From IMG/VR virus record IMGVR_UViG_3300028840_003551, positions 1-29,171 of that record: a stretch of 29,171 nucleotides of DNA. One strand, written 5' to 3'. Below, in pieces: positions 7,062-24,130 of the stretch; within the stretch, counting starts at the first letter, position 1, and each line of letters opens with the position of its first letter. The position numbers were made by a program, and so were the translations under genes. The stretch comes from a virus. The notes beneath the pieces are model-generated. The model saw only the letters and a list, made by a program, of their open reading frames with translations, was not told the origin of the DNA and ran no database searches.

Positions 7062-7063
7062 GT

Positions 7064-9624: not shown

Positions 9625-9641
9625 GCTGCCTCCAAAAGAGC

Positions 9642-9678
9642 ACGGCCCCGCCGACCGGGTTAGGGTCGACGGGGCCGT
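9642..9678 (-). terminator. Strong hairpin before SNF2 gene, terminator or attenuator
   Basis: Arms 9642-9656 and 9664-9678 pair over 15 positions with one mismatch, loop of 7 bases. In the leftward direction it is followed by GCTCTTTTGG, a short T run that merges into the Shine-Dalgarno sequence of the SNF2 gene. It could act as a weak intrinsic terminator or as a translational or RNA-processing element. Confidence 0.6.
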
Positions 9679-9706
9679 ACGTGCGACGGGGATGGTGATA
9701 GTGAGG

Positions 9707-9952
9707 CTACGCCTCCGGCGGGAAGTAGAAGTTGATGCCGAGCTTCCCGACCCGGTCCTTGGCGGCGTCGTTGATCGCCTGGTTGCCGCCGGTGGTGGCG
9801 CACACGTCGTTCTTGCCGGAGCTTGACTTCTGCGTCGGAGCGTCGAGGTCGATCTCGACGATCAGCTTCCGGCCTTCGATCCGCGTGTACACGTTGCGAC
9901 CGATCTGATCGCCCTCACACTTCGCCTTGGACGTCTTCGTCTTCGCGGCCAT
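9707..9952 (-). CDS. Hypothetical small protein, 81 aa
   Basis: Not recognised. The start is ATG 9952, with AAGGAGGCG upstream; the longer frame to 10039 is not supported. The N-terminus is short and basic (MAAKTKTSKAK), the middle (VYTRIEGRKLIVEIDLDAP) looks like beta strands, and two cysteines (C12, C51) are present. The gene is isolated between two hairpins, so it may form its own transcript segment with moderate to high expression. No function is proposed. Confidence 0.6.
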   Translation of the reverse strand: MAAKTKTSKAKCEGDQIGRNVYTRIEGRKLIVEIDLDAPTQKSSSGKNDVCATTGGNQAINDAAKDRVGKLGINFYFPPEA

Positions 9953-9982
9953 GCTTCGCCTCCTTCTAGCTCGCCCCGTGCG

Positions 9983-10058
9983 AGCACACATGATTGCCAT
10001 CGTGGGGTCCTGGCCGGCGCCCAACCGCCAGGGCCCCACAACGGCGACGCTGTGTGCT
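9983..10058 (-). other. Nested intergenic hairpin
   Basis: Inner arms 10002-10014 and 10027-10039 pair (13 positions, one G-T wobble, loop of 12). Outer arms agcacaca (9983-9990) and tgtgtgct (10051-10058) are a perfect 8-base inverted repeat around it. It fills the gap between the genes ending at 10057 and starting at 9952. No T run follows in the leftward direction, so RNA stability or processing is at least as likely as termination. Confidence 0.5.
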
Positions 10059-10551
10059 ACTCGATCTCGAGGTAGGACTTCAGCGCCTCCATCACGACGG
10101 ACGCGAAGGACTGTTCCTGCTCCTCGGCGTAGCCCTTGGCGGCCTCGAACACCTCGAGGTTGTCCGCCGAGAAGTAGACCACCTGCCGGACGCCCTCGCC
10201 CTTCGAGGCCTTCTTCGCCTTCTTGCCCTTCTTGCCCTTCTTCGCCGTCTTCGCCTTCTTCGCCACTGCCATCTCACGCCTCCTTGTCTTCGCCGCCTCC
10301 TCAGGCGACACCCAACCGCCGTTCGATGTGCGGGTCCACCCCTCTGGTGGTCGCACAGTCCTGGAATCTGCCGTCATCCACTGGAGGCTGCCACACTCGT
10401 AGCAGAGCACCTCGTAGCGAGCCCACGGCACCGTGATGCCGAAGTAGCCTCGCTTTTGGGATCGACACTTGATGTTGGGGCACTTCGGGCCGGAGTACGG
10501 CTTCCACCAGCCGGTCAGCGAGCCTTTGATCTTGTAGGTCCGTCGTGGCAT
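10057..10551 (-). CDS. Zinc-finger protein fused to Lys-rich linker and ribbon-helix-helix domain
   Basis: A 164-residue reading frame with three parts: a zinc-binding domain (C24, C29, C50, C53), a Lys/Ala/Gly stretch (KKAKTAKKGKKGKKAKKASK, about 98-117), and a C-terminal ribbon-helix-helix domain (VRQVVYFSADNLEVFEAAKG ... SVVMEALKSYL). The domain resembles those of the proteins at 11161-11454 and 15346-16083. An internal ATG at 10272 (residue 94) has its own strong AGGAGG sequence, so a 71-residue tail-plus-RHH protein is probably also or instead made. ATG 10551 has GGAG 7 bases upstream. Likely DNA-binding; whether regulator or nucleoid protein is unknown. Confidence 0.65.
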   Translation of the reverse strand: MPRRTYKIKGSLTGWWKPYSGPKCPNIKCRSQKRGYFGITVPWARYEVLCYECGSLQWMTADSRTVRPPEGWTRTSNGGWVSPEEAAKTRRREMAVAKKAKTAKKGKKGKKAKKASKGEGVRQVVYFSADNLEVFEAAKGYAEEQEQSFASVVMEALKSYLEIE

Positions 10552-10582
10552 CGTTGTTCTCCATACGACGAGTGGATCATGG

Positions 10583-10631
10583 ACCTGACCAGGGACATGG
10601 TCAAAGGCTTTTCTCACGCCCCTGGTCAAGT
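10583..10631 (-). other. Intergenic inverted repeat
   Basis: Arms 10583-10594 and 10620-10631 pair over 12 positions with one G-T wobble, around a 25-base loop. It lies in the 90-base gap between the genes at 10057-10551 and 10642-10851. It lacks a T run on the leftward side. It may be an operator or an RNA element. Confidence 0.45.
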
Positions 10632-10641
10632 CTGTAGGACA

Positions 10642-10851
10642 CTACCCGTTCACCTCGCCGCTCACGAAGACCTTGCCGTAGTACACGGTCAGTGGCCTGG
10701 TGTGCCTGCCCTTCACGAACGCCTCGGCGTGCTGCTCCGCTTCGTCGTACGTGTTGTAGAGCCACGGCCGCTGGATGACGTAGTGACCGCCCGGCAGCTG
10801 CTCGACGATGATGACGGCGTACATCTCGATCCTCGGTTCGAAGCCGCTCAT
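10642..10851 (-). CDS. Hypothetical small protein, 69 aa
   Basis: Not recognised. Residues 9-66 read as an alternating strand/helix fold (MYAVIIVEQLPGGHYVIQRP, YDEAEQHAEAFVKGRH, TVYYGKVFVSGEV), plausible for a small alpha/beta protein. ATG 10851 overlaps the preceding stop as ATGA, so it is probably translationally coupled to the gene at 10848-11090. A second ATG nine codons in is possible. No cysteine, signal or membrane segment is seen. Confidence 0.55.
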   Translation of the reverse strand: MSGFEPRIEMYAVIIVEQLPGGHYVIQRPWLYNTYDEAEQHAEAFVKGRHTRPLTVYYGKVFVSGEVNG

Positions 10852-11090
10852 ACGACCACCGCCTTCGCGTGCTGGGAGCAGAGCCAGGACCCGGCGACGT
10901 TGCGGTCCGCCTTCCGGCTGCAGCGCTTGCCGCTCTTCGTGGTCGCCGAGCAGCGGGCGACGTCGGTGATGCCCGGCCCGGGCTTCAGTGAATCCACACG
11001 GGCCTTGGCCAGCTCGGCCCGGCGCCTGGCGGCCAGCCGCTTGCCCTGCTTTCGCTTCCGAATCCGGAGAATCCTGCGCTTATACTGCAT
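10848..11090 (-). CDS. Basic protein with C-terminal Cys/His zinc motif, 80 aa
   Basis: N-terminus very basic (RRILRIRKRKQGKRLAARRR). The C-terminus has CSATTKSGKRCSRKA followed by WLCSQHA, i.e. Cys-Cys-Cys-His spaced as in the small zinc-binding motif often found alone or at the ends of phage and bacterial proteins. DNA or RNA binding is likely; nothing more can be said. The start is uncertain: the frame is open to ATG 11168, but the added 26 residues run through a repeat-rich leader and look non-coding, so ATG 11090 is preferred although its ribosome binding site is weak. Confidence 0.55.
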   Translation of the reverse strand: MQYKRRILRIRKRKQGKRLAARRRAELAKARVDSLKPGPGITDVARCSATTKSGKRCSRKADRNVAGSWLCSQHAKAVVV

Positions 11091-11100
11091 CGTAGCCACA

Positions 11101-11165
11101 CTTTCTAGCGCGTATACACGCGCGGTTTCACAGCGGAACGTCCTCCTTAATAAGGCGGTTTCACA
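11101..11165 (-). promoter_or_regulatory. Leader with 11-bp direct repeats, hairpin and orphan ribosome binding site
   Basis: The sequence gcggtttcaca occurs at 11122-11132 and again at 11155-11165, 33 bases apart. A hairpin gcgcgt-atac-acgcgc lies at 11108-11123. Between the repeats is a strong AGGAGG (11142-11147) with only a short reading frame behind it: GTG at 11131, eight codons, TAG ending at 11105. This looks like an operator or leader-peptide region for the gene that follows. Confidence 0.4.
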
Positions 11166-11454
11166 CATCTCCCGGGCCCGGCCGTCCCTCGGCCGGGTCC
11201 TGCTGGTGGTCGATCTTCGGGTCCAGCCCTGCCCTCAACGACATCAGGGACTCGACCACGATCCGGCTGAAGCCCACGTGTCGCTTCACCGCGTAGGCCT
11301 TGGCCCACTTCAGGACCGGCTCGTCCTGTGTGGCGAAGTACACCGCCTGGCGAATGCCGTAGTTCACCTTGGCCTTGGACTTCGACTTCGGCTTCGCCTT
11401 GGATTTCGGCTTCGCCTTCGCCTTCGCCTTCGCCCTCTTCTTGGCCTTAGCCAC
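11161..11454 (-). CDS. Histone-tailed ribbon-helix-helix protein, 97 aa
   Basis: The first 30 residues are an alternating Lys/Ala/Pro/Ser tail (AKAKKRAKAKAKAKPKSK), like histone H1 or HU-tail proteins. Then follows a ribbon-helix-helix-like domain: strand GIRQAVYFATQ, helices DEPVLKWAKAYAVK and FSRIVVESLMSL. A Gly/Pro/Asp-rich end follows. GTG 11454 has AAGGAGGTG upstream and overlaps the preceding gene by 8 bases. The domain is homologous in pattern to the C-termini encoded at 10057-10551 and 15346-16083. Likely a DNA-binding architectural or regulatory protein. Confidence 0.7.
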   Translation of the reverse strand: MAKAKKRAKAKAKAKPKSKAKPKSKSKAKVNYGIRQAVYFATQDEPVLKWAKAYAVKRHVGFSRIVVESLMSLRAGLDPKIDHQQDPAEGRPGPGDV

Positions 11455-11716
11455 GGGCCACCTCCTTCTTGCGGGCGGCGTACTGTGCCTTGTGGATCCC
11501 TTCCTGCAGCCCGTTGAAGTAGATCCGGATCTCGCGAAGCGTCCTGTGGTACACGTTGTGGGGTTCGTCGTCGAGGTGATGGATGCAGCAGTGCCATCTG
11601 TACGGCTCCAACAGCCGCTTGCTGCGGTGGAGCACCACACGACCGGCCTCACCGAACACTTCTCGAGCGACCGACTCAACGAACTTGCGGATGGTCGCCT
11701 GTGTTTCCCTTGCCAT
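11447..11716 (-). CDS. Hypothetical protein, 89 aa
   Basis: Not recognised. A helical N-terminus (ATIRKFVESVAREVFGEAGR) is followed by a His/Cys-rich middle (YRWHCCIHHLDDEPHNVYHR) and a further helical part (LREIRIYFNGLQEGIHKAQY). The histidines and two adjacent cysteines could bind a metal, but no known family pattern is evident. ATG 11716 has AGGAGAG ten bases upstream. The end overlaps the start of the histone-tailed ribbon-helix-helix gene by 8 bases. Confidence 0.6.
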   Translation of the reverse strand: MARETQATIRKFVESVAREVFGEAGRVVLHRSKRLLEPYRWHCCIHHLDDEPHNVYHRTLREIRIYFNGLQEGIHKAQYAARKKEVARG

Positions 11717-11741
11717 TACTGCGGCTCTCCTCTCTTGGTCA

Positions 11742-12014
11742 TCAGTCCGTCTCCTTCCACTGGATCACGATCTCTAGTCGGGCCCGCTGCTGGACCTGCA
11801 CGTCCGGCACGAACAGTCGCACCACGCGCAGCATTCTCTGTTCCTCGAAGTAGTCCATGTCACGGGCCACATCGTTGTCGTTGCTCGCGATGGTCCACTT
11901 CCGCACGTACCCACTGCCGGTCTTACGGCCCGTGGTCTCGAGGACCACAAAGCCATAGGCCGCCAGCGACTTCGCCAGCATCTGCCGGCGCTCGTTCCAG
12001 TTAGTACCGTACAC
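11742..12014 (-). CDS. Hypothetical protein, 90 aa
   Basis: Not recognised. Pattern: helix NERRQMLAKSLAAYGF, strand VVLETTGRKTGSGYVRKWTI, helix DVARDMDYFEEQRML, strands RVVRLFV and RARLEIVIQW. This suggests a small alpha/beta fold. GTG 12014, with AGGAGG six bases upstream, is preferred over the longer frame to 12035. It overlaps the end of the von Willebrand/CobT-like gene by 14 bases, so it is probably coupled to it. Confidence 0.6.
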   Translation of the reverse strand: MYGTNWNERRQMLAKSLAAYGFVVLETTGRKTGSGYVRKWTIASNDNDVARDMDYFEEQRMLRVVRLFVPDVQVQQRARLEIVIQWKETD

Positions 12015-12894
12015 TGGTGTCCTCCTGTTCCTCACCGAAGCTGCCGCCCATCTCCCTGAGGAACTTCTCCGCCTGGCTCTGCGACCACACGCTGGAGATC
12101 ATCACGTTGGCCGCCTCGCCCGCCTGATCCTGCAACGGCCGAGGCAGCGTCTCCTTGTCCACCAGGCCGTTGCTGAAGTGCCGGCAATGGCCGTAGCCGC
12201 TGGCCAGCTGCTGTTCCGCCGAAGCCCAGGAACGCCAGATCCAGGTCCGGTAGAAGCCGGCCAGTGCCGTTGTGAGGGCCAGGTAGTTCAGGTCCAGCCT
12301 GTCGGAGTAGTCCTTCAACAGGATGCTGGTCGTGGTGTGCTGCCCACCGTGCCCGATGTACTGGCTGTCCAGATGTGTGAAGCCGATGATCCGAGCCGAA
12401 CGCCCTGCTCGCTCCAGGGCATCTGCCAACACAATGGCACAGGCGCCCCGCCAGAAGCAGGAGTCCGCGGTGGTGGAGTAGGAGGCGTTGATGTCCACGA
12501 AGATGGTGGTCGTGGTATGGCCGACGCCACGGCTGGGATGTCTCTCAGTGCTCTCCCACGCCCGTTCCAGGTCGCCCTGGTACACGCGCTGGATGTCGAG
12601 GTGATCGCCGAACGACTTGCGGACCTTCTTCCGCCGGACCGAGATCATCTCCGGCATCTCGAGGACCTGCAGGCTGGACCACACCTTCTCCAGACCGGCC
12701 GGCCACCCGTCCTTGCTGATCCGGACCACCTCTTCGACGTTGCGGACGCCCCACCAGCTCTGGCCTTTGTGGGCGTAGTGGCCAACGCTCCGCAGCTGGA
12801 TGAACGACTCGTTCCGTTCCGTCCGAGCGTTGGTGGCGCTCGGCTTCACCGCCATCAGCTCGGCCACCGACTCGTAGTGTCGATCGTTCATCAT
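12001..12894 (-). CDS. VWA/CobT-like partner protein of the AAA+ ATPase (DUF7192-like)
   Basis: A 297-residue protein. Residues about 97-115 (GDHLDIQRVYQGDLERAWES) and the segment TTTTIFVDINASYS (127-140) followed by WRGACAIVLADALERAGRSA resemble phage proteins of the DUF7192/CobT-like type. Asp134, Asn136 and Ser138 sit where a von Willebrand A domain has its metal-site DxSxS motif, here DxNxS. The AAA+ gene lies directly upstream and shares ATGA. In MoxR-VWA and CobS-CobT pairs, the ATPase and the metal-binding partner work together on a target protein or in metal insertion; the target here is unknown. ATG 12891, one codon later, is an equal start choice. Confidence 0.7.
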   Translation of the reverse strand: MMNDRHYESVAELMAVKPSATNARTERNESFIQLRSVGHYAHKGQSWWGVRNVEEVVRISKDGWPAGLEKVWSSLQVLEMPEMISVRRKKVRKSFGDHLDIQRVYQGDLERAWESTERHPSRGVGHTTTTIFVDINASYSTTADSCFWRGACAIVLADALERAGRSARIIGFTHLDSQYIGHGGQHTTTSILLKDYSDRLDLNYLALTTALAGFYRTWIWRSWASAEQQLASGYGHCRHFSNGLVDKETLPRPLQDQAGEAANVMISSVWSQSQAEKFLREMGGSFGEEQEDTSVRY

Positions 12895-14105
12895 GCCACC
12901 TCGATTTCCAGTTGGTCCTTGAGGGCCCTGCGGGCCGCTTCCTGGACCTGCCTGCGCTCGTCTGCCTTCCAGTCCGCGAAGAAGGCGTTCTCCCAGGTCT
13001 TCACGTCCTGCAGGATCGGATTGCCGCTGACGTCCTGGTCGGTGAAGTCCTTCATGTTGCGTGTGGACATGATCCGGCGAAGCCTGCGGTTCCGGATCTC
13101 GTCGCGGACCGCCTTGCACCACACGTACGCCTTCTTCGACTTCTCGGTGATCTTCTGCTCGACGGTGTCGCTGTAGTCCAGGTACACCCGCTGGCTGGCG
13201 AAGCGGTTCAACGTTGCCTCGTCCAGTCGGTTGCGGCCGACGTACAGAGCGTCCGGCCCTGTGCCGAAGGTGTTGGCCGCGGCGATGCAGATGAAGTCCG
13301 GATGCCGATCGACTCGGGCCATCCCCTTGCCCTCGATGCCCCGCTGCGGGATGTACATGTGGCCGTTGGCCAGCGCAGCGTTCATGAAGGTGAGGACGTT
13401 GGCGTCCCCGTTGTCGATCTCGTCCAGCAGGAAGATCCCGCCCTTGGTGTACCGCTCGATGAACGGTGCGGGCACGTAGCCGAACTTGCCGCCTGCGTGG
13501 ATCGGCAGGAGCCAGCCGGCCAGCTGCGCCTCGCTCATACCGACCGAGCAGGAGGCGGAGGAGAACTCGAGGCCGAGGGCCTCGGCCAGGCGCTCGGCGA
13601 TGAACGACTTGCCGGACCCGGTCGGTCCCACCATCAGGATGTTCTTGCGGATGCTGGCGTAGGCCAGAAGCAGTTCGAACTCTGCCGGCAGGGTGCAGTC
13701 CATCTTCTTGATCCGCCGCTTCACCTTGCCGTTGATCTCGGTCTTGACGATCACTTCGATCGGCCTGTGGACCTCGAGGAGCTCCTTCACCTTGTCCACC
13801 ACCATCGCCATCACGTCCTGCTGGTGGGCGTCCTTCAGTCCGTCGAACAGCTGTGTGACCAGTTCCTTCGCCCGGTCCCGGCTGCCCGTCAGGCGATCGT
13901 CCACCACCGAGTTGACCAGGGTCTCGAGGACGGCCTGGTCGATCGGCTTGATTCGCTTGGCTTCGGTCTTGCAGGTCTGGAACGTGTGCCGGCTGAGCCG
14001 CCGGCCGGGGAACTCGAGTGCGGCTGCTCGCATCGCCTGCTGCACGGTCGCGCGAGGGTTGTCTACGAAGTACTGCCTGATCCATCCGGTCAAACTCTTC
14101 GCCAT
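12891..14105 (-). CDS. MoxR/CobS-like AAA+ ATPase
   Basis: A 404-residue AAA+ protein. Walker A GPTGSGKS at 160-167, Walker B GGIFLLDEID at 222-231, sensor 1 AAANTFG with Asn278, arginine finger LDEATLNRF with Arg301. The insert KFGYVPAPFIERYTKGG before Walker B is as in CobS/MoxR proteins. The N-terminal 130 residues are helical and contain an MoxR-unlike region (IRQYFVDNPRATVQQAMRAA) typical of phage members. The adjacent gene encodes the VWA/CobT-like partner. Role: ATP-driven remodelling of an unknown target. ATG 14105 has AAGGG seven bases upstream. Confidence 0.87.
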   Translation of the reverse strand: MAKSLTGWIRQYFVDNPRATVQQAMRAAALEFPGRRLSRHTFQTCKTEAKRIKPIDQAVLETLVNSVVDDRLTGSRDRAKELVTQLFDGLKDAHQQDVMAMVVDKVKELLEVHRPIEVIVKTEINGKVKRRIKKMDCTLPAEFELLLAYASIRKNILMVGPTGSGKSFIAERLAEALGLEFSSASCSVGMSEAQLAGWLLPIHAGGKFGYVPAPFIERYTKGGIFLLDEIDNGDANVLTFMNAALANGHMYIPQRGIEGKGMARVDRHPDFICIAAANTFGTGPDALYVGRNRLDEATLNRFASQRVYLDYSDTVEQKITEKSKKAYVWCKAVRDEIRNRRLRRIMSTRNMKDFTDQDVSGNPILQDVKTWENAFFADWKADERRQVQEAARRALKDQLEIEVA

Positions 14106-15345: not shown

Positions 15346-16083
15346 CTACTTCAGGAAGGTGTACAGCGCCTGGGCGACGATCGAGTTGAGGCCGCAGCTG
15401 TCCGCCTTCGCGGCCTTCTTCGCCGCCTTCAGGATCTCGAGGTTGTCCACGGCGAAGTACACCACCACGGCCTTGCCCCGGCCGGTCGCCTTCGACTTCT
15501 TGGTGGCCTTCTTGGCCTTGGCCTTCTTCACTGCCGCCTGCCGCTTGGCCTTCCGACGGGGCTCGATCGTCTGCTTGCCCTTCTTGGTCGGCTTCGGCTC
15601 CGGCTTCTCGGTCAGGCCCGGCTGGTGCTTGGTGAAGGTGACGCTGGGCTTCTTGCCGGTCCGGACGACGGCGCAGACCACCTTCTTGGTCTTGTCGTTC
15701 GGCTTGATGAAGAACACCCGCGAGCGGTCCTTGCCGTTGAGCATCTCGATGCCGTTGATCGTGCAGCGGCCGTTGAAGCGCTGGTGCAGGACGGCCATCA
15801 CCTTGATCTCGTTCCGCTCCTCGAGCTGCTTCCTGATGTCGACCAGCTTGGCCTTCTTCGCGGCCTTGTTGTCCGCCGCCACGACCTCCCGGGCACTGCG
15901 CTTCTGAACGGCCATGTCTTCCTTCAAAAACTTCGCAGCCATCTCCTTCGTGGTCTTCGCAGCCATGTTCAATTCTCTCTTTCGCTCGTCCAGCCTCTTC
16001 CAGACCAAGGCCACCTGGCACTTGGCCGTCTTGTGATGCCGCGAGCCACAATGGCCGCAGCGCACGGCACGTCTCACTGCCAT
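15346..16083 (-). CDS. Zinc-knuckle protein with Lys-rich linker and ribbon-helix-helix domain
   Basis: A 245-residue frame. Residues 9-22 form a CX2CX4HX4C zinc knuckle (CGHCGSRHHKTAKC). About 40-150 is a helical and strand-rich middle of unknown type (LVDIRKQLEERNEI, GRCTINGIEML, SRVFFIKPNDKTKKVVCAVV). Residues about 160-205 are Lys/Ala/Pro-rich, and the end is a ribbon-helix-helix domain (AVVVYFAVDNLEILKAAKKA ... IVAQALYTFL) matching those at 10057-10551 and 11161-11454. ATG 16083 has GGAG five bases upstream. Internal ATGs (codons 40 and 57) also have plausible ribosome sites, so shorter products are possible. A nucleic-acid-binding role is likely. Confidence 0.65.
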   Translation of the reverse strand: MAVRRAVRCGHCGSRHHKTAKCQVALVWKRLDERKRELNMAAKTTKEMAAKFLKEDMAVQKRSAREVVAADNKAAKKAKLVDIRKQLEERNEIKVMAVLHQRFNGRCTINGIEMLNGKDRSRVFFIKPNDKTKKVVCAVVRTGKKPSVTFTKHQPGLTEKPEPKPTKKGKQTIEPRRKAKRQAAVKKAKAKKATKKSKATGRGKAVVVYFAVDNLEILKAAKKAAKADSCGLNSIVAQALYTFLK

Positions 16084-16183: not shown

Positions 16184-16444
16184 CTACTCCTTGTCCGGGT
16201 AGACCCGCATCTCGGTCTTGTCCTCGAAGGACAGGCCGAAGCTGTCGATCTCGTTGAGCATCCCGACCACCTCGACCACCGTGTCCATGTCGGGGACGTC
16301 CACCTTGGCGATGCACGTCTCGCCCTCGGTGCCCTCGATCCAGGACAGCTCGACGCCCCAGCACTCGTCCGCTCGGTCGGTGATGTGGTCCACCATCTCC
16401 GACAACTCCTCGGCGTCCGTCGACCGCAGTTCGAATATCATCAT
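16184..16444 (-). CDS. Hypothetical protein, 86 aa
   Basis: Not recognised. Acidic, with helix AEELSEMVDHITDRADE, strands GVELSWIEG and ETCIAKVDVP, and helix DTVVEVVGMLNEID, reading like a ferredoxin-like or swapped-hairpin small fold. ATG 16444 is preceded by GGAGGAG at five bases; the next ATG one codon later is nearly as good. The frame is open to 16615, but the upstream part looks non-coding. It is the first gene after the long palindrome-rich region and may lead the leftward transcript to 9.7 kb. Confidence 0.65.
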   Translation of the reverse strand: MMIFELRSTDAEELSEMVDHITDRADECWGVELSWIEGTEGETCIAKVDVPDMDTVVEVVGMLNEIDSFGLSFEDKTEMRVYPDKE

Positions 16445-16504
16445 GGCTTCTCCTCCGTTGGGCTCTTGCCACTGGCCCCATGCCAGCTGTGCCCGTTTCC
16501 TGTT

Positions 16505-16533
16505 TGTCGAGGACTCACGCCCGCGCCTCGACA
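16505..16533 (-). other. Hairpin upstream of 86-aa gene
   Basis: Arms tgtcgagg (16505-16512) and cctcgaca (16526-16533), perfect over 8 pairs with a 13-base loop, in the untranslated stretch about 60 bases before the start of the gene at 16184-16444. Possible leader RNA structure. Confidence 0.4.
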
Positions 16534-16732
16534 CGCTGCCGCGGGAACCTATCCCCTCGGCCTTGGTGCATCGTTCGATCGACTCGTCTAGGCCCGACCC
16601 GGGAGAGCACACCAACGTTCCGGTCCTGCCATCGCGGCGGTCCGTAGTGATCCCGTTTGCTGTTCGAGTCGTTCGCCAGGCTCGATTGCCTGGATGGCCC
16701 CGCCGGGGGTCTATGCCCGCGGCCAGCCCGTT

Positions 16733-16850
16733 CCACTATTCGGTTGTCAAGAGGTCTCGGGGGTTGGTGTCCGCGTTGTTCGGCCGCGGCGCCGTTGTGT
16801 TGGGCGCCAGGCGTGGCCGTCCGACCGCCAACCCCGTATCCAGATGTCAA
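16733..16850 (-). promoter_or_regulatory. Pair of TTGACA-containing elements 100 bases apart
   Basis: On the - strand, TTGACAACCGAATAGTGG (16750-16733) and TTGACATCTGGATACGGG (16850-16833) agree at 13 of 18 positions. The first six bases equal a sigma-70 -35 box, but no -10 box stands at the right distance. They could be sites for another sigma factor or a repressor; chance similarity is possible. Confidence 0.25.
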
Positions 16851-16912
16851 ACAACAAGCACGACATAGGTAATATAAGGAAAGCGCGGCCGCCTGGCTAC
16901 AGGGCCGTATGT

Positions 16913-17146
16913 ACACGTGTGGACGTAGAACGCGTGGGATGAGCTGTTTAAATGCAGAATTCTGCGTTTCTCGACCTGCGTAGGCACGTGTGAATCGCCG
17001 GATCCGAAGGCCGGCCAGTGCGACCAACCCGCGAACTCTGCAGAATTCCGCAGTCCCGAGGCTATTCCTACGCATTCTAGGGATTCCCGGTTCAGGCCTT
17101 GAAGACCCGTGTGTATCACGGAACGGCAAATGCGTTATACACGTGT
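16913..17146. repeat. Cluster of palindromic repeats
   Basis: Palindromes acacgtgt (16913-16920, 17139-17146) lie outside gcagaattctgc (16954-16965) and gcagaattccgc (17040-17051). The direct repeat attcctac is at 17064-17071 and 17215-17222. Pairs of dyad-symmetric sites are typical of operators or origins. Confidence 0.5.
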
Positions 17147-17218
17147 GTAGACGCTATTTCTCCCGCAAACAAAATCTTCGGTGTCCCACGATTTTTGGGC
17201 GTTGACCGAGCCCGATTC

Positions 17219-17740
17219 CTACTGGCCGGGCCGCCTTCGGCCCACGATCCGGCGGAGCCAGCGAGGCAGCTGTGGCCGCTTCTCGTCCCGCACTGCCCGC
17301 TGCCGCTGCTTCGTCTTCGTCGATCGCACCTCGCGATGGCAGTGGAGGCAGAGCCACCGGACCTTCTTCTCGGCCTCGGGGCAGAACGGGTTCAGCTTCC
17401 GAGCGCTGCCACACCACTCGCAGTGGTCCGGCATCGTCTTCTTGCCGGCCAGGATCGACTGGAGCTCCTCGATGATGAACTGGTCTTCGGCGGTGGGGTG
17501 TGCCTTGTGAAGGCGGTAGTACAGGCGAGCCCGAAGTAGATGCTTCGGTCTGCTGGTGTGGTAGGCCTCGCGTGCGTACTCCAGGCGCTGGGCCCGCTCC
17601 TGGTGGTACTTCGTCTTCAGGACCTGACGTCGCTTCTTGTAGTTGTCCTTGGCGGCCCGCTTCAGGCAGGCCTTACACTTGTACTTGTTGGACGGGTAGA
17701 ACTCTGCCTTCCGCCCACAGTGCTTGCATCGCCGCTTCAT
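17219..17740 (-). CDS. Zinc-ribbon and HNH-like protein
   Basis: 173 residues with two metal-binding parts. N-terminus: C5, C8, C22, C25 (CKHC ... CKAC), followed by a basic helix (KRAAKDNYKKRRQVLKTKYH). C-terminus: CEWCG at 107-111 and WLCLHCHREV at 129-138, as in the ends of HNH nucleases, but the middle lacks the usual catalytic His pair (LNPFCPE instead of xxHHxD). It may be a degenerate HNH or recombination endonuclease VII-like protein, or simply a nucleic-acid-binding protein. ATGA overlap with the gene upstream. The tail is Arg-rich. Confidence 0.6.
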   Translation of the reverse strand: MKRRCKHCGRKAEFYPSNKYKCKACLKRAAKDNYKKRRQVLKTKYHQERAQRLEYAREAYHTSRPKHLLRARLYYRLHKAHPTAEDQFIIEELQSILAGKKTMPDHCEWCGSARKLNPFCPEAEKKVRWLCLHCHREVRSTKTKQRQRAVRDEKRPQLPRWLRRIVGRRRPGQ

Positions 17741-17946
17741 CGCCGCATGTCCCCTCTACGAATCAACGATCGGATGAACCCGAGATTGGCACGCTGGCCA
17801 CAGTACGGACAACGGACCGTCCAACGATCCGACCTGTGCTCGTGTCTCTCACCACAACGGCATTCCAGTTGGAGCATGTTGACGCCCGGGGTCCAGCGAG
17901 CACCCCTAATGACAAACGACCGAGCCTCGGCTCGTCGAGCAACCAT
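17737..17946 (-). CDS. Small zinc-ribbon protein, 69 aa
   Basis: One zinc ribbon, CRCGERHEHRSDRWTVRCPYCG (C29, C31, C45, C48 or close), flanked by Arg-rich ends. ATG 17946 has GGAGGT six bases upstream, so the N-terminal 20 basic residues are probably real. It begins inside the end of the sigma-like gene (41-base overlap) and its stop overlaps the next gene. Function unknown; DNA or RNA binding likely. Confidence 0.6.
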   Translation of the reverse strand: MVARRAEARSFVIRGARWTPGVNMLQLECRCGERHEHRSDRWTVRCPYCGQRANLGFIRSLIRRGDMRR

Positions 17947-18472
17947 CGGAGCACCTCCCTCGAAGGCGGGTCACCATTGCGGACACTAGCTGGGAGACTC
18001 GTCCTTCTGTCACCTTGCAATGGTCTGCCACCTCTCGTTGTGTCCGCAGGCCGGCCAGGCTGTCCAGGATCAGCCGGCCGCGGCTGTCCATCTGAGCGTA
18101 CAGCTGGTCGATGGTCTCTCGCTGTATCAGTAGGTCCAACGGCTCCAGCTGCTCGTCCGGTACTACGACAAAGCGATCGTCACGGCTGCCCTCGTTGTCA
18201 GTGATCCGCTTGTCCTGGAGCAGCTTCTTGTGATGTCCCTGTCGGCCGGCCATCGACCGGACCATGTCCTTGATCCGGCCTAGGATCCGATGTGAGGCGT
18301 ACTGCCGTAGGCTGACTGGGAAGCCGAATCGGTATCGCTTGGCACAGCTCCACAGAGCTAGCCGTGCCTCCTGTCGAGCCTCGTCCTGCAGAGCGGTCAT
18401 CTTGAGGGACGCCGCGATCGCTTCCCCTGTTTGTTCCGCCCACGCCCAGTCCGCTTCGTTGATGGTGTGCAT
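17906..18472 (-). CDS. Small sigma-factor-like protein, 188 aa
   Basis: Residues about 28-75 (LQDEARQEARLALWSCAKRY, FPVSLRQYASHRILGRIKDM) look like sigma-70 region 2, and about 120-172 (IDQLYAQMDSRGRLILDSLA, TQREVADHCKVTEGRVSQLV) like region 4 with its helix-turn-helix. The size suits a minimal two-domain sigma factor that would redirect host RNA polymerase to phage promoters. ATG 18472 has GGAAGG seven bases upstream. Its start lies 76 bases inside the preceding DUF5664-type gene, and its C-terminus overlaps the next gene by 41 bases. It could also be an RNA-polymerase-free DNA-binding regulator. Confidence 0.65.
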   Translation of the reverse strand: MHTINEADWAWAEQTGEAIAASLKMTALQDEARQEARLALWSCAKRYRFGFPVSLRQYASHRILGRIKDMVRSMAGRQGHHKKLLQDKRITDNEGSRDDRFVVVPDEQLEPLDLLIQRETIDQLYAQMDSRGRLILDSLAGLRTQREVADHCKVTEGRVSQLVSAMVTRLRGRCSDGCSTSRGSVVCH

Positions 18473-18798
18473 CGCTTCGCCTTCCGCCGCCGCCTGTTGT
18501 CCAGGTGGCCGTACTGTCCCTTGTCCGACTCCAGGTCCGCAATCATCGCTAGGCAGGCCAGCGCATGATCCAGGTGGCTCAGGCCGGAGTCCTTGTCCGG
18601 CTCGTTGCTGTCCCACCAGTCGGCCAGGTGGCGACGAGCTGCTCCGTACAAACGGCTGTAGGTCAGCCCGTCGCCTTCGGTGTAGTTGTAGTCCCCGTAC
18701 TTGATGGACCCGTTGGTTAGGGCCCTGGCGATCGCTCGCTCTGCCGCTGTGGGTATCAAGTCCATACGGAGCTTGCCCTGATCGTGTTTGATCGCCAT
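18397..18798 (-). CDS. DUF5664-type dATP/dGTP diphosphohydrolase
   Basis: 133 residues. The conserved pattern KHDQGKLRMDLIP (4-16), NGSIKYGDYNY (29-39), RRHLADWW (55-62) and DKDSGLSHLDHALACLAMI (68-86) matches the phage dATP/dGTP diphosphohydrolase family DUF5664; the HL-x-H and D residues are likely metal ligands. Hydrolysis of purine dNTPs would tune the pool for DNA synthesis or modification. The last 30 residues are Arg/Lys-rich and overlap the sigma-like gene by 76 bases, so this tail may be an add-on. ATG 18798 shares TGATG with the gene before. Confidence 0.75.
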   Translation of the reverse strand: MAIKHDQGKLRMDLIPTAAERAIARALTNGSIKYGDYNYTEGDGLTYSRLYGAARRHLADWWDSNEPDKDSGLSHLDHALACLAMIADLESDKGQYGHLDNRRRRKAKRCTPSTKRTGRGRNKQGKRSRRPSR

Positions 18799-19145
18799 CA
18801 GAGGAACACCTCTCCATCATCCGGATGCGGCACCGGGGTCTCGTCCCAGAGCTCCTGTGGAGTCTTCTTCCGGACCTTCGGCTTCTCCTTCAGCCGCTCC
18901 TCCAGCTTCTTCTTCAGCCGCTCCCGATCCTGGCCCCGACCTTCGTGCAGTCCCCTCGCTCGCATCGCCAGGCGTGCGAACACTCGTTCCTGCTTCGGTG
19001 TCAGGGTCTTGGTGACCGTCCAGTCGAAGATCGAGGCCAGGAAGTCACTCTCCCAGTCGTTGCATTCGATCTGATCCCTGACCTCGATGACGTCCTGGAT
19101 ATCCTTGTGCTGCTTTGCCCGCAGCTCTTCGTCAACTTCCCGCAT
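18798..19145 (-). CDS. Hypothetical helical protein, 115 aa
   Basis: Not recognised. Almost all helix: REVDEELRAKQHKDIQDVIE, WESDFLASIFDWTVTK, TPKQERVFARLAMRARG, then a charged coiled-coil-like stretch (DRERLKKKLEERLKEKPKVR). TLTPKQERVFARL resembles helical ends of phage replication proteins. Start ATG 19145 is preferred; ATG 19157 is also possible. It overlaps the gene upstream by 14 bases and the DUF5664-type gene by one. Confidence 0.6.
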   Translation of the reverse strand: MREVDEELRAKQHKDIQDVIEVRDQIECNDWESDFLASIFDWTVTKTLTPKQERVFARLAMRARGLHEGRGQDRERLKKKLEERLKEKPKVRKKTPQELWDETPVPHPDDGEVFL

Positions 19146-19449
19146 GCTCTCTCCCATCAACTCCTGTGTTCGCTGCTTGAAGCCTCTGCGTCTTCGCTGC
19201 CGGATCGACCGATGCTTCCAACGATGCGAGCTCTTCACGGATCTCTCCCTTCAGAATCGCATGGCAGTGGTCCTCGATCAGGGACACCAGGCGGACTGCC
19301 AGCTTGCCCGCATGCGGCGCACTGATGCCCACCACTTGGCAGCTTGAGGCGACGGACATCGCGATCTTCAGTTGCCGCTCGCTCGGTTCCTGGCGGCGCT
19401 CCTGTAGGTACGCCTGGAAGAATCGGTCGTTCCAGCTCTGCTTCGCCAT
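19132..19449 (-). CDS. Hypothetical helical protein, 105 aa
   Basis: Not recognised. Predicted helices NDRFFQAYLQERRQEPSERQ, LKIAMSVASSCQVVG, HAGKLAVRLVSLIEDHCH and KGEIREELASLEASV. No motif seen. ATG 19449 with GAGAGGA somewhat far upstream. The C-terminal end runs into the next gene by 14 bases. Confidence 0.55.
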   Translation of the reverse strand: MAKQSWNDRFFQAYLQERRQEPSERQLKIAMSVASSCQVVGISAPHAGKLAVRLVSLIEDHCHAILKGEIREELASLEASVDPAAKTQRLQAANTGVDGREHAGS

Positions 19450-19464
19450 CGTGGGCCATCCTCT

Positions 19465-19674
19465 CTATTGGTCAGCCCGGTCTGCGACGATCGCGCCTGC
19501 CAGTGTGGCGCGAACCAGTACGGCCTTGTTCTTGTACATCGCGTCCTTCGCATCGTAGATGCAGCTGCCCTCGTCCAGCACCTGGCCGTCCGGGGTGATC
19601 ACGATGAAACGGTTCCGCGTGTCCTTCCGTTGTTCGAGCGCTCTGGTGATCAACTCGTATTCACTCAGGGACAC
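19465..19674 (-). CDS. Hypothetical protein, 69 aa
   Basis: Not recognised. Helix LSEYELITRALEQRKDT followed by a strand-rich part (NRFIVITPDGQVLDEGSCIY) and KNKAVLVRATLAGAIVA. GTG 19674 has AAAGGAG upstream and overlaps the preceding gene by 14 bases. Hydrophobic C-terminus but too short for a confident membrane segment. Confidence 0.5.
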   Translation of the reverse strand: MSLSEYELITRALEQRKDTRNRFIVITPDGQVLDEGSCIYDAKDAMYKNKAVLVRATLAGAIVADRADQ

Positions 19675-19984
19675 CGTAGTCTCCTTTCCGCCTGTCTCGC
19701 AGCTCCGCCAACTTGGAGCGATTCCAGTTCTGCAGCTGACTGAAGTAGCCCACGATCCTGGTGACGTGTGTCATCACCCTCGGTTGTCGCTGGCCGGTCA
19801 GTACTGCCTCCAACTCGTCCCAGCCGTGATCTCTGATCGCGCTAATGCTCACGGCGAACTTGCTGGCCGTCTTGATGACGCCGATCAATGCCTGGTCCTC
19901 TGCGGGCGTGGCTCCCTCTTTCACGCCCAGCCAGACGAATCGATCGTCCTTTGCAATCTGCTCGTAGAACGCCTTACCATCCAT
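19661..19984 (-). CDS. Protein with NrdD-like glycyl-radical tail, 107 aa
   Basis: The last 33 residues (from about 75: TRIVGYFSQLQNWNRSKLAE, then LRDRRKGDY) resemble the C-terminus of anaerobic ribonucleotide reductase NrdD, where the glycine of R-x-x-G-Y carries the radical (Gly79 here). The NrdD zinc cysteines that come just before this are absent; the protein has no cysteine. The first 70 residues are helical and unlike NrdD. It could be a free-standing glycyl-radical domain for the host enzyme, as GrcA is for pyruvate formate-lyase, or merely share a motif. No other reductase gene is in the window. Confidence 0.55.
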   Translation of the reverse strand: MDGKAFYEQIAKDDRFVWLGVKEGATPAEDQALIGVIKTASKFAVSISAIRDHGWDELEAVLTGQRQPRVMTHVTRIVGYFSQLQNWNRSKLAELRDRRKGDYGVPE

Positions 19985-19998
19985 CCCCGTCTGTCCTC

Positions 19999-20304
19999 TC
20001 AGTTCGGCACCAGGGCCATCGCCTGGCGGTTGATGATCCAGGTGATCACGATGTGGTGGATATCAGCCTCCATCGCGGGCCCGTACATCAGTACGAATAC
20101 GCTCGGCATGTGGTCGAACACGATCTCGATCAACATCTCGATCACTTCCTCAACTGTCTCCGGCATCCGATGGAGCTCGATCTCCCCGGTCGTGATCTCC
20201 TTCGCGATCCGGAACGTCGTCTGCTCCAGCAGCGTCTTCGCCGTGATCGCCTGCACCACGCATTGCTTCATCGAGTCGTTGTCCTGCTGACTGTCGCCCC
20301 ACAT
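19999..20304 (-). CDS. Hypothetical protein, 101 aa
   Basis: Not recognised. Residues about 12-40 are helix and strand (KQCVVQAITAKTLLEQTTFR), 45-75 helical (ETVEEVIEMLIEIVFDHMPS), then hydrophobic VFVLMYGPAMEADIHHIVIT. ATG 20304 has GGAGGC eight bases upstream. It begins 155 bases inside the preceding gene's 3' end, an unusually long overlap. Confidence 0.55.
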   Translation of the reverse strand: MWGDSQQDNDSMKQCVVQAITAKTLLEQTTFRIAKEITTGEIELHRMPETVEEVIEMLIEIVFDHMPSVFVLMYGPAMEADIHHIVITWIINRQAMALVPN

Positions 20305-20626
20305 TGGCTTCGCCTCCGTTACCGAACTTGATGGTCCACAGGTTCGGATCCACCTGAGTCAGTTGGCCGCCCTGCGACTCCACCATCCTCTGAATTGCAC
20401 CCAGCATCGCCTGCCGCATACGACTGCGGGACTCTGCCAAGATGTTTGCTGCATCGCCATCGAGCTCACCCAACGACGGTGTCTTCGGCATACTGGGCAT
20501 CATCCCTTGACCGAAGCTGATCTTCCGAGCGCCCAACGGCACACCGGTGAACGGCTCTGGTTTCCTGCTGCCCCCGAGTGCACGCCCTTCCCTCCGTGCC
20601 TGCCTGTCCCTGCCTCCGCGACCCAT
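20150..20626 (-). CDS. Hypothetical protein, 158 aa, with long 3' overlap
   Basis: The N-terminus is Arg/Gly-rich (MGRGGRDRQARREGRALGGS). The middle is believable protein (PSLGELDGDAANILAESRSR, MRQAMLGAIQRMVESQGGQL, DPNLWTIKFGNGG). The last 50 residues, read over the next gene, are Asp/Gly/Arg/Ala-rich and look like a by-product of that overlap. ATG 20626 has AGGAG six bases upstream. Either the overlap is real or a frame change shortens the protein. No function is recognised. Confidence 0.5.
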   Translation of the reverse strand: MGRGGRDRQARREGRALGGSRKPEPFTGVPLGARKISFGQGMMPSMPKTPSLGELDGDAANILAESRSRMRQAMLGAIQRMVESQGGQLTQVDPNLWTIKFGNGGEANVGRQSAGQRLDEAMRGAGDHGEDAAGADDVPDREGDHDRGDRAPSDAGDS

Positions 20627-20638
20627 GTCCTGCTCCTC

Positions 20639-21328
20639 TCATGTGCCGATCAAGGCCTCGTCTGTGCCTCGTCTCGGCGCTCCTCGCGTATCCACGCCAT
20701 AGGTGTAGTCGTCCACCTGATGGCCGGCCTGGTATAGAGCCGCGCCCAACATGATGTCGCCTCCACCGGCGTGCCTCAGTCTTGGATCCGGCCACTTCAG
20801 TAGTCGGATCATATCCGTTCGCAACCAGGTGTAGCCACCCAACACGAATCGAGCTCCCAGGCACTGCGGCATCGATCGATGGACTCGAACGTCCTCCAAC
20901 GGCCGGCCTCGATACCACTCAGCGGTCTCCAGGAACTGACGTTGACCGGAACTGAAGCAATGCATTGCCTTGGTTCCAAAACACACAGCTTCTGGATGCT
21001 GGTCGATGAACACTTGAGCCCAGTCCCACCAAGTCATGTTGGTCATTCGTATGTCGTCGTCTAGCCACAACGTCCACTCGCCCGTGGGTGTCGAGATTCC
21101 CTCGAACAGTTCCTTCATCACATGGTACTTTGGGACGTTCTCGTCACTGAACAACACGTAGTGGTGCTCCTTGTCCTGGAACGGCACCAGGAGCTGCCTG
21201 GTCTCCGGACAGACCACATTGGCCCAGACCCAGATCCGATGGCCCTTCGGTATGGACAGCAGCATCTGGATCGTCCGCCGAGCCAGGTCAGGGAACTCAC
21301 CATAGAACAGGGCGTAGATGTCATGCAT
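20639..21328 (-). CDS. GT-A fold glycosyltransferase
   Basis: 229 residues. TLWLDDDIRM at about 86-95 is a DXD-type metal and nucleotide-sugar site following PTGEWTLW as in family 2-like enzymes. HAGGGDIMLGAALYQAG at 186-202 and a short Arg-rich end (RGAPRRGTDE) resemble the acceptor and C-terminal motifs of phage glycosyltransferases. It would transfer a sugar from a nucleotide sugar; targets may be modified DNA bases, phage proteins or host envelope. ATG 21328 has AAGGAG six bases upstream. No signal or membrane segment, so cytosolic. Confidence 0.8.
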   Translation of the reverse strand: MHDIYALFYGEFPDLARRTIQMLLSIPKGHRIWVWANVVCPETRQLLVPFQDKEHHYVLFSDENVPKYHVMKELFEGISTPTGEWTLWLDDDIRMTNMTWWDWAQVFIDQHPEAVCFGTKAMHCFSSGQRQFLETAEWYRGRPLEDVRVHRSMPQCLGARFVLGGYTWLRTDMIRLLKWPDPRLRHAGGGDIMLGAALYQAGHQVDDYTYGVDTRGAPRRGTDEALIGT

Positions 21329-21776
21329 CGCTTACTCCTTGTTCGGGTCCAGTCGGCCTATCGTCGGCCGGGTCCGCCACCGATTCTGCTCCGCGGTCTT
21401 CTTGGTCTGCCTGATCCCACGTTCCTTTGGTCGGGGCATCCTGTAGTACTCGTACACAGTGGCGTGGTCCTGGTACTTCCGTATCCGCAGCTGGCCACCA
21501 GACGTCCGGCTGGCTCATATCGATGTGGAAGTCCCAGCCAGCGCTGTCGCACCACATCTGAATGTGGCCTTCCAACGTGAAGTACTCCGACGCGTCCCTC
21601 TCGCCGCCAGGCCTCAGGACGTTGATCGCCGTCATCAGTTCCTTCTCGATGCCGGTCATCGGCTTCCAGTACACCAGCAGGGCCTCATCCACCACCTTGA
21701 ACTCGTACGGCCACTTCAGCCGCAGGCGAGTCAGGAACTCGTGGAGCTGTCGTTGTTCCATCCCACCACTAGGCAT
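21321..21776 (-). CDS. Hypothetical protein, 151 aa
   Basis: Not recognised. The first part is a helix-strand domain (MEQRQLHEFLTRLRLKWPYE, LLVYWKPMTGIEKELMTAI). The middle, EYFTLEGHIQMWCDSAGWDF, is aromatic-rich, and the final third is Asp/Pro/Gln-rich. Start ATG 21776 with GGAGGC five bases upstream. It overlaps the glycosyltransferase start by 8 bases, so the two are probably translated together. Confidence 0.55.
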   Translation of the reverse strand: MPSGGMEQRQLHEFLTRLRLKWPYEFKVVDEALLVYWKPMTGIEKELMTAINVLRPGGERDASEYFTLEGHIQMWCDSAGWDFHIDMSQPDVWWPAADTEVPGPRHCVRVLQDAPTKGTWDQADQEDRGAESVADPADDRPTGPEQGVSDA

Positions 21777-21945
21777 CACGTGCCTCCATCTCCAGGAGCA
21801 GTCGAACGATCGTGTCACGCCCCAGAAGCAACGCATTCAAGGTCGGATGTTCTCTGGTGTTGTGCTGTACGTAGACCTCGATCTCTTCGTTCATCAACTG
21901 CACCACGTCTTCTGGTGGAATCAACTTCTTCTTCTCCATCGGCAT
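21769..21945 (-). CDS. Small hypothetical protein, 58 aa
   Basis: A helical protein (EDVVQLMNEEIEVYVQHNTR, NALLLGRDTIVRLLLEMEAR) with ATG 21945 and AGGAGG five bases upstream. It overlaps the next gene by 8 bases. The frame is open further upstream, but that part lacks a start with a good ribosome site. No function recognised. Confidence 0.55.
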   Translation of the reverse strand: MPMEKKKLIPPEDVVQLMNEEIEVYVQHNTREHPTLNALLLGRDTIVRLLLEMEARDA

Positions 21946-21958
21946 CGCCGCCTCCTGT

Positions 21959-22225
21959 TCACGGGTACTCGTCGCCCCGGTACCATACGTGTAGGCACTT
22001 CGGACAGATCCGAGTGAAGCAGTCCAGCTCCTCCATCGGCAACGGACAGCCACACCAGAAATGCCACCACTTGTGCCAGTAGACCACAGTCGTCTGCTTG
22101 AGCCAGCACCACAGCGCCACGCGGCGCGAGTCGAACACCGCCTTCCACGGATAGAAGCCGAAGTGACAACGAGGGCATCCCCGATCACCGAAGTACAGGA
22201 ACTGACATCGGCCACAGACGTTCAC
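21959..22225 (-). CDS. Trp-rich double zinc-ribbon protein, 88 aa
   Basis: Two zinc motifs, CGRC ... CPRC at the N-terminus (about 4-22) and CGC ... CPKC toward the end, on either side of an unusual aromatic stretch (WCWLKQTTVVYWHKWWHFWC). GTG 22225 overlaps the preceding stop as GTGA. The aromatic stretch is not a clean membrane segment. Function unknown; nucleic-acid or protein binding is possible. Confidence 0.55.
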   Translation of the reverse strand: MNVCGRCQFLYFGDRGCPRCHFGFYPWKAVFDSRRVALWCWLKQTTVVYWHKWWHFWCGCPLPMEELDCFTRICPKCLHVWYRGDEYP

Positions 22226-22461
22226 TGCATCACCGCCACACACTTGTTGGTGCAGGCTGCCCAGACGTGTCCGTTGTACGAGGAGATGCTGTAGCGCAGC
22301 TTTCCTTTCCCACACAATGGACAGGGCATCTCGCCCTGTATGTCCTGTTCCGGCTTCTCACTGCCGTGCTTCTCCTTCACTGCCAGGATCGCCACCAGGC
22401 CCCGAGGCATATCGCTGGGTCCCTTGATCGGTCGCTTCCTGCCTGTTCGTCGAGCTACCAT
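22222..22461 (-). CDS. Small zinc-ribbon protein, 79 aa
   Basis: N-terminus basic (MVARRTGRKRPIKG), C-terminus one zinc ribbon (CPLCGKGKLRYSISSYNGHV then CTNKC), a form often seen in small phage proteins. ATG 22461 with GAAGGA six bases upstream. It overlaps the 3' end of the gene upstream by 104 bases. Function unknown; nucleic-acid binding likely. Confidence 0.6.
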   Translation of the reverse strand: MVARRTGRKRPIKGPSDMPRGLVAILAVKEKHGSEKPEQDIQGEMPCPLCGKGKLRYSISSYNGHVWAACTNKCVAVMQ

Positions 22462-22720
22462 TGCCTGTCCTTCCGTGTACGATTCTCATCGCCTCTGTGA
22501 CATCGACACCGTCTGCGAATTCTCCAGCATCGATCAACATCTCCACCGCAGTCCTGAAGTCTGCTTCCAGGTCAGCGAGTCTCTCGTCCAGGATGGTCGC
22601 GAAGCTGCTGACCAGACGGCGACGGTACTCCTCTGCACGGTACTCTGGATTGCCGCCCAGTCCGTGATGCATGAACAGGTCTGCGACCAACGCCTTGGCG
22701 ACTGCGATCGTATCCATCAT
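22358..22720 (-). CDS. Hypothetical protein, 120 aa
   Basis: Residues 1-80 are helical and believable (AKALVADLFMHHGLGGNPEY, RLADLEADFRTAVEMLIDAG). The last 30, read over the next gene, are Gly/Gln/Ser-rich and likely only an overlap extension. ATG 22720, or 22717 one codon later with GGGAG five bases upstream. It overlaps the membrane-protein gene's stop as ATGA. No function recognised. Confidence 0.5.
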   Translation of the reverse strand: MMDTIAVAKALVADLFMHHGLGGNPEYRAEEYRRRLVSSFATILDERLADLEADFRTAVEMLIDAGEFADGVDVTEAMRIVHGRTGNGSSTNRQEATDQGTQRYASGPGGDPGSEGEARQ

Positions 22721-23076
22721 CTCTCCCATTTGACGTCTACTAGTGTGAACGGCTCTCCCTCGGCTAGTCTGGCGAACCACGCCTCGAAGTCCTCTCTGAC
22801 GATCCCACCGAAGCTGTTGGTTCCGTACACCCAGCCTTGTGCTCTCAGGAACTGCTCCTTCCGCTCCCACTCGATCGGCCCGATTCTGGCAGATTCCGGA
22901 TCCTTCATCGAGCTGTGGATCGCTTCACGTAGGATCCTCTCCTGTGTTGGGTACGGCCCTCGAGCTGCCCAGATCAGCCCAACACACCAGAAGATCACCA
23001 TCAGGGCTATCAACGTCAGCGGCCACCAGCGCTTCACTCTGCGGACGCGAATCGCCCACACTGTGTCCTTCCCCAT
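22717..23076 (-). CDS. Single-pass membrane protein, 119 aa
   Basis: Basic N-terminus (RVRRVKRW), one membrane segment (WPLTLIALMVIFWCVGLIW, about 19-37), then an outside or inside domain with DPESARIG and YGTNSFGGIVREDFEAWF. That pair resembles a small domain of envelope proteins (DPxSAR ... NxFGG). The inward positive charges suggest the C-terminal domain faces out. ATG 23076 has GAGGT about five bases upstream. Function unknown; host-envelope modification or exclusion is possible. Confidence 0.6.
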   Translation of the reverse strand: MGKDTVWAIRVRRVKRWWPLTLIALMVIFWCVGLIWAARGPYPTQERILREAIHSSMKDPESARIGPIEWERKEQFLRAQGWVYGTNSFGGIVREDFEAWFARLAEGEPFTLVDVKWER

Positions 23077-23078
23077 CG

Positions 23079-23330
23079 CTACCTCAGTCCTGTCTGCACC
23101 GCAATGTGAGTAGCAATCCCCGCGCCGGTGCTCTCCCGCAGGGGACATCCCATCTTCATCACGCAAACGATCTCGTCCGGCCGGAGCGCGAACGCTCGAC
23201 GGACCCGGGCCTTCACTTGGACTCGCCACAACGGCAGCTCTCGGATGATCAGCTCCTCTACCGTCAGGCCGTAGTGGACTGTCAGATCGTGTGCGACGTA
23301 GCTGGCCAGGTTGGTCTCTTGGAGGCTCAT
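23079..23330 (-). CDS. Hypothetical protein, 83 aa
   Basis: Not recognised. Helix TNLASYVAHDLTVHYGLTVE, then VQVKARVRRAFALRPDEIVC and VMKMGCPLRES. ATG 23330 has AGAGG seven bases upstream and overlaps the preceding gene's stop. The two cysteines are isolated. It ends two bases before the membrane protein gene. Confidence 0.5.
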   Translation of the reverse strand: MSLQETNLASYVAHDLTVHYGLTVEELIIRELPLWRVQVKARVRRAFALRPDEIVCVMKMGCPLRESTGAGIATHIAVQTGLR

Positions 23331-23668
23331 CGCTTTGCCTCTGCTTCCTGTCCCGCATACCAGGCCCTGCTGAACTGGCCGTGGCATTCCCGGCACCAGT
23401 ACAGACCGCCCATCTGGTCGATCGGCACCGTCTTCCCACACTTGCTGCACTCACACTTCAGGACCTGTATCCGGCCGTTCTCTACCGTCAACATCCCTCC
23501 CCGCGCCATCTCCTCGATGCAGTCCCTGCAGCGTGTCCGAGACAGCCGCACCGCGTGAGGTTCCGGCTGGAGACGGTAGTCGTAGAAGCCCTTCACCTTG
23601 TCCTGCCGGGTCCGACACTGTTTGCACAGCTTGGTTCCTTCCAGTCGTCCTCGGCCGTTGGTTCCCAC
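23327..23668 (-). CDS. Double zinc-ribbon protein, 113 aa
   Basis: Two zinc modules: CKQC ... CRDC at about 15-50, with spacing like endonuclease VII and HNH N-terminal ribbons, and CECSKCG ... CREC toward the end. GTG 23668 is preceded by AGGAGGTGA, a near-perfect match to the 3' end of 16S rRNA, so this first gene of the leftward block is probably well translated. Likely binds DNA or RNA; the catalytic residues of HNH enzymes are not seen. Confidence 0.6.
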   Translation of the reverse strand: MGTNGRGRLEGTKLCKQCRTRQDKVKGFYDYRLQPEPHAVRLSRTRCRDCIEEMARGGMLTVENGRIQVLKCECSKCGKTVPIDQMGGLYWCRECHGQFSRAWYAGQEAEAKR

Positions 23669-24130
23669 TGAATCACCTCCTGTCTGTACTACACAAATCG
23701 CAGTCAGTGGCCAGCCTGATCTTCGGAAGGTGTTTTGACCAGTGCTCATTTTCAGTTTTGTTTTGACTGTGTAGGACAGTGCTTCACCGGTGGTGTTTCC
23801 GGCAGGTGTCTAAACACAAATCGAAGAATCGAAGCTGAGATCGGAGTACACGCCTTCCTGAATTCCCTCTACGTGGCGGTATAGTAGTAGAAAGAAAAGT
23901 AGTGAAGGTTATGTAAGTGGTTAAGAGTGTCGGAATTTAAAATCGATAGGTGGTGGCACAACGCGCGTGTATTCCGACCATCGAGTTTTCAAATCCGGGA
24001 GTGGCTTGGGTTGGCGAAACCTTCTCCTGTTCTCTTTACAAACTGCTCAGTAGCCGGGATCGCCCTCTACCGCATAGAGACCCGTAGTTCCGATCGATTC
24101 TCCGAGCAGACACAACGAGGGTTTGTGGAC
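23669..24130. promoter_or_regulatory. Divergent intergenic region (462 bp)
   Basis: It lies between the first leftward gene and terminase small subunit, so promoters for both directions should be here. Seen: direct repeat tgttttgac at 23731-23739 and 23759-23767, each followed by cagtgct (23740-23746, 23777-23783). Also the inverted repeat gtcggaat (23929-23936) with attccgac (23971-23978), the palindrome caccggtg (about 23785), and the -10-like tatagt at 23880. No clear -35/-10 pair is seen. The reading frame open from 23927 looks non-coding. Confidence 0.5.
23731..23783 (+). repeat. Direct repeat in divergent region
   Basis: tgttttgac occurs at 23731-23739 and 23759-23767 (28 bases apart), each followed by cagtgct at slightly different distance. 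Paired direct repeats next to two divergent promoters are typical of operator or activator sites. Confidence 0.45.

Follow-up and report, generated by a model that had tools for sequence, protein, structure and literature searches.

A noncoding gap of 774 nt interrupts the leftward genes of an uncultivated phage, and we see about an even chance that it is a regulatory region, by which a leftward early-type gene block is split into two transcription units. The promoter, terminator, and operator functions assigned to it, and the proteins that would bind there, are inferred from the anatomy of the region (Table 1). Replication origin, structured RNA, and functionless leftover sequence are weighed below as other explanations.

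The noncoding gap and its surroundings

The window (the whole stretch of 29,171 nt that was analyzed) is a viral contig of 29 kb filed as a virus record, in which the genes between position 1 and about 23.7 kb point leftward (minus strand) and those beyond about 24 kb point rightward. The rightward block includes a terminase-like gene (36% identity to annotated large terminases), and the leftward block encodes a primase/helicase, a Sak4-like AAA_24 ATPase, a PD-(D/E)XK nuclease, a SNF2 helicase, and an AAA_5 ATPase. A second IMG/VR contig, L039 (3300017963_000417, 42 kb), stops short of the gap. Because it overlaps window positions 1–11765 with two mismatches and carries on into tail-type genes farther along, the two contigs are, judged by this overlap, pieces of one phage, with a size of about 60 kb (summed lengths minus overlap, unassembled).

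The gap is real and noncoding. The HNH-like gene has its stop at 17219, and on the far side of the gap a gene for 86 residues, likewise leftward, starts at 16444 behind a strong ribosome site (CAACGGAGGAGAAGCC-ATG, minus strand). With a codon-based gene finder, 774 nt is the longest gap of the window and 456 nt the second longest. When six frames were scored by a codon test that had been trained on genes of the phage itself, log-odds were −0.25 to −0.52 for the gap (all frames) vs. +0.03 to +0.52 for real genes. An earlier note on this DNA had given the same limits and the same rank for the gap. That note had named a coding frame conserved in relatives among the findings that would speak against its proposal; no coding frame emerged in the gap: a 204-aa frame and the others were rejected on their negative codon scores and the lack of any PHROG or tblastn match. 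The note's picture of a genome packed with overlapping genes was a little overdrawn, as gaps of 165–456 nt were also called (some of these contain genes overlooked by the finder), although the gap is indeed the longest. The neighbors were correctly named: the sigma-70-like gene is 0.7 kb upstream (Sigma70_r2, 1.3e-4; Sigma70_r4, 4.7e-4; both just under the Pfam cut-offs), and the AAA_5 ATPase gene 2.3 kb downstream.

Table 1. Features of the gap and its two flanking genes (window coordinates).
Feature	Position	Strand	Basis or remark
Noncoding gap, 774 nt, inside leftward gene block	16445..17218	-	Codon log-odds negative in six frames; longest gap of window
HNH-endonuclease-like zinc protein gene, upstream of gap	17219..17740	-	phrog_2340 endonuclease, E 3.8e-6
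86-aa gene, downstream of gap	16184..16444	-	No Pfam/PHROG match
AT-richer, palindrome-rich right part; upstream end for minus-strand transcription	16840..17200 (about)		GC, palindrome count
AAAATC-loop-GATTTT element after HNH-like gene	17171..17195		Only AAAA-stem-TTTT element in window
Palindromic site 1, TACACGTGTG	16912..16921		Sequence
Palindromic site 2, TACACGTGTG	17138..17147		Sequence
Third related site, CACGTGTG	16985		Sequence
20-nt palindrome, one mismatched pair, AAATGCAGAATTCTGCGTTT	16950..16969		Sequence
Second palindrome copy, one mismatched pair, CTGCAGAATTCCGCAG	17038..17053		Sequence
Lone sigma-70-like promoter match in gap, TAGCCA-17-TATATT	16871..16899	-	Weak (9 of 12)
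TTGACA copy one (TTGACATCTGGATA)	16845..16850	-	Hexamer match
TTGACA copy two (TTGACAACCGAATA)	16745..16750	-	Hexamer match
154-nt imperfect inverted repeat, long hairpin possible	16926..17079	-	z −4.24 minus, −3.72 plus

Gaps of 300–1000 nt were called in most of 60 relatives (by a crude gene finder that misses some genes, so that this is an upper bound), and annotated relatives also have gaps of such size; because relatives commonly have such gaps, length alone does not set this one apart. The commonness of such gaps also fits a functionless leftover, such as the remains of a gene or sequence flanking the insertion of a homing endonuclease, as do the HNH-like endonuclease gene that directly adjoins the gap and the lack of any distinctive feature in its left part (16445–16840). 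We regard it as unlikely: coding character or protein similarity is retained in no frame, and a palindrome enrichment like that of the right part would not be expected in debris.

Palindromes, promoter-like motifs, and candidate binding proteins

The right part of the gap is mildly unusual. Its GC content is 50–60% (at about 16840–17200) vs. 64–68% in the left part, and the gap holds 10 perfect palindromes of at least 8 bases vs. 3.6 in dinucleotide shuffles (P = 0.002), with 7 of the 10 at 16830–17218. This enrichment is modest, as about 2% of other 774-base genome windows reach 10. The AT-richer core and the two palindrome pairs reported earlier are present at the positions claimed, with ACACGTGT at 16913 and 17139, GCAGAATTCTGC at 16954, and GCAGAATTCCGC at 17040. 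Both TACACGTGTG and GCAGAATTCTGC are confined to the gap, and the window contains three 20-base palindromes with one mismatch, AAATGCAGAATTCTGCGTTT among them. The repeat excess over the whole gap is ordinary (19–47% of genome windows reach it) and stands out in the right part only, a part picked after the fact. The gap palindromes are absent from the divergent promoter region at 23669–24124 (no common 11-mer at one mismatch); recurrence of an operator motif at other phage promoters, which was not seen, is not required of a single-promoter operator.

Sigma-70-like matches in the gap number one vs. 0.2 expected, by a consensus that may not be that of the host. The window's only two minus-strand TTGACA hexamers both lie in the gap, 100 nt apart, and no −10 box was found at the usual 17-nt distance from either. 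The AAAATC-loop-GATTTT element possibly acts as a weak terminator on both strands; its fold (−8.6 kcal/mol on the minus strand, z −0.25) is no better than that of shuffles.

Three small proteins encoded at 15346–16083, 10057–10539, and 7993–8190 (minus strand) have a common C-terminal domain, composed of a VVYF strand and two helices. One protein with this domain matches RHH_3 weakly (E 0.08), and its structure model, of low confidence, shows two helices. The VVYF-domain proteins are plausibly a small family of ribbon-helix-helix-like DNA-binding proteins within one phage, and the RHH_3 match and two-helix model make proteins of this kind plausible binders of palindromes. By eye, 11161–11454 (minus strand) shows the same C-terminal pattern, and most of these small proteins have lysine-rich N-terminal parts.

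For a regulatory boundary, we propose that transcription arriving from the sigma-like and HNH-like genes upstream would be attenuated or terminated at the A-stem-T element, read from 17195 to 17171, and that a new transcript would begin inside the AT-richer right part. Its start might be controlled at the ACACGTGT and GCAGAATTCTGC palindromes by binding proteins such as the ribbon-helix-helix-like proteins of the phage or its sigma-like factor. After a leader of some 400 nt, the transcript would cover the 86-residue gene, the genes for the AAA+ ATPase and its partner, and the replication genes.

This regulatory reading is supported because the gap is noncoding, with its enriched palindromes clustered in the AT-richer part; because it contains both of the minus-strand TTGACA hexamers and a promoter-like match; because the one AAAA-stem-TTTT element directly follows the upstream gene; and because the 86-residue gene has a strong ribosome site and the phage encodes sigma-70-like and ribbon-helix-helix-like proteins. 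Against it, each motif is weak taken alone, a leader of ~400 nt is long, the palindromes are not repeated at 23669–24124, and no relative found carries the region, hence no conservation stands behind any motif. Of the three functions that the earlier note had offered (origin, multi-operator promoter, structured RNA), the multi-operator promoter fits best, an assessment made from anatomy, namely the palindromes, the single sigma-70-like match, and the two TTGACA hexamers.

The gap resembles the internal promoter/operator regions of phage early operons in being a noncoding break in a co-directional operon, with an AT-richer palindromic part and regulator genes nearby. It differs from them in having no conserved motif, and its leader would be unusually long. 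A regulatory boundary here would show how these uncultivated phages part small early genes from replication genes, which is routine phage biology of an ordinary kind. A demonstrated origin or RNA would interest more widely, and the present evidence favors neither.

Replication origin and structured RNA as alternatives

If the gap were a replication origin, an initiator or the phage primase/helicase would open the AT-richer part beside the palindromes. The gap has some of the expected properties, being noncoding, AT-richer, and palindrome-bearing within an operon that leads to replication genes, and fourfold-site GC skew is +0.21 in genes to its right vs. −0.03 to its left. However, the change point of this skew falls at about 18.6 kb, outside the gap (permutation P 0.13), and the skew is positive again at 1–4.8 kb. 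Neither a DnaA box (TTWTNCACA) nor an iteron array was found in the gap, and sequence at 23.7–23.9 kb is richer in AT. Cumulative GC skew, proposed earlier as a check on the origin idea and computed here over the window, is lowest near 23.7 kb, at the switch in transcription direction, and not at the gap. The origin proposal therefore gained no positive support, with DnaA boxes, iterons, and a skew change all lacking at the gap, and we consider an origin here rather improbable. The positive skew (+0.21) belongs to the minus-strand genes at 17219–23668; genes at 5–17 kb have no positive skew.

Some primase relatives have a gap of 320–900 nt right before the primase gene, which also bears on an origin in this operon; this phage has no gap at that place. 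About 10 of 60 primase relatives show the arrangement (e.g., L043, 17063–17549; L044, 22604–23034), and their pre-primase gap is a candidate origin or promoter. Gaps of about 490 nt in Krampusvirus krampus and about 430 nt in Wollypogvirus wollypog are likewise noncoding and situated in a replication operon with a homologous primase/helicase. They lie directly before the primase, unlike the gap studied here.

Alternatively, the gap could be transcribed leftward with the operon as a structured noncoding RNA comparable to the large phage RNAs GOLLD and ROOL, which are of the same length class and also occur in phages. Its length is within the range of large phage RNAs, and the 154-nt hairpin has a folding z of −4.2; the minus strand folds slightly better than the plus strand, because two pairs are G-U there that are A-C on the plus strand. 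This hairpin was chosen as the best in the gap and was compared with 154-nt windows over the whole window, scored alike: 13 others reach its z or lower, mostly inside genes. The mean folding z is −0.53 for gap windows and −0.53 for the rest of the phage. The whole gap folds at z −2.3 and −2.7 (only 20 shuffles), whereas sliding windows are ordinary, and special structure in the gap was rejected on this genome-wide control. The stem-loop noticed earlier does exist, but it is not exceptional. GOLLD and ROOL are frequently found near tRNA islands (PMC12286853), whereas the window has no tRNA genes, the gap has no overall excess of structure, and Rfam returned no useful match at gathering score or E 5, beyond a microRNA model matched by chance. 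No homologous sequence for covariation was found in the searched collections. Because Rfam gave no match, 13 windows equal the hairpin, and the mean z is the same inside and outside the gap, the structured-RNA proposal is unsupported, and we judge it quite improbable. Least probable, and very much so, is a phage-specific noncoding element without relatives, either a new large phage RNA family or a new, paired-palindrome type of origin, known so far from one phage lineage.

Relatives and other genes of the phage

No DNA similarity to the gap was found in phages or plasmids. An alignment-based primase search returned 79 loci, the closest of which (L113; primase 55% identical) has the SNF2-nuclease-Sak4-primase block in common with this phage, but not the early region or gap region; a 17-base stretch of L113 that matches the gap falls within a predicted gene, and the match was taken as chance. 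None of the 80 loci from an AAA-based search has the gap DNA or the small genes adjoining it. In one AAA-gene relative (L135), a gap of 649 nt lies about 1.5 kb upstream of AAA; this gap was set aside, as it borders tail-type genes, folds at chance level, and has no sequence likeness. Searches of viral contigs with the HNH-like, 86-residue, and sigma-like proteins, which needed an exact 8-residue peptide match, gave no match, and a scan of genome contigs gave distant partial primase matches only. No relative with the gap or the adjoining small genes was thus found in these collections.

Genes for FolE, a radical SAM protein (QueE-like), and PTPS/QueD are present at window positions 1–1974 (minus strand). 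Together these suggest preQ0 synthesis, which perhaps serves 7-deazaguanine DNA modification. At 12001–14105 (minus strand), the AAA_5 ATPase gene is followed by a partner gene, for which 65 matches were found in viral contigs. The pairing is kept in many of these contigs (including L138 and L140), and the two genes are perhaps a MoxR/VWA-like pair in phages.
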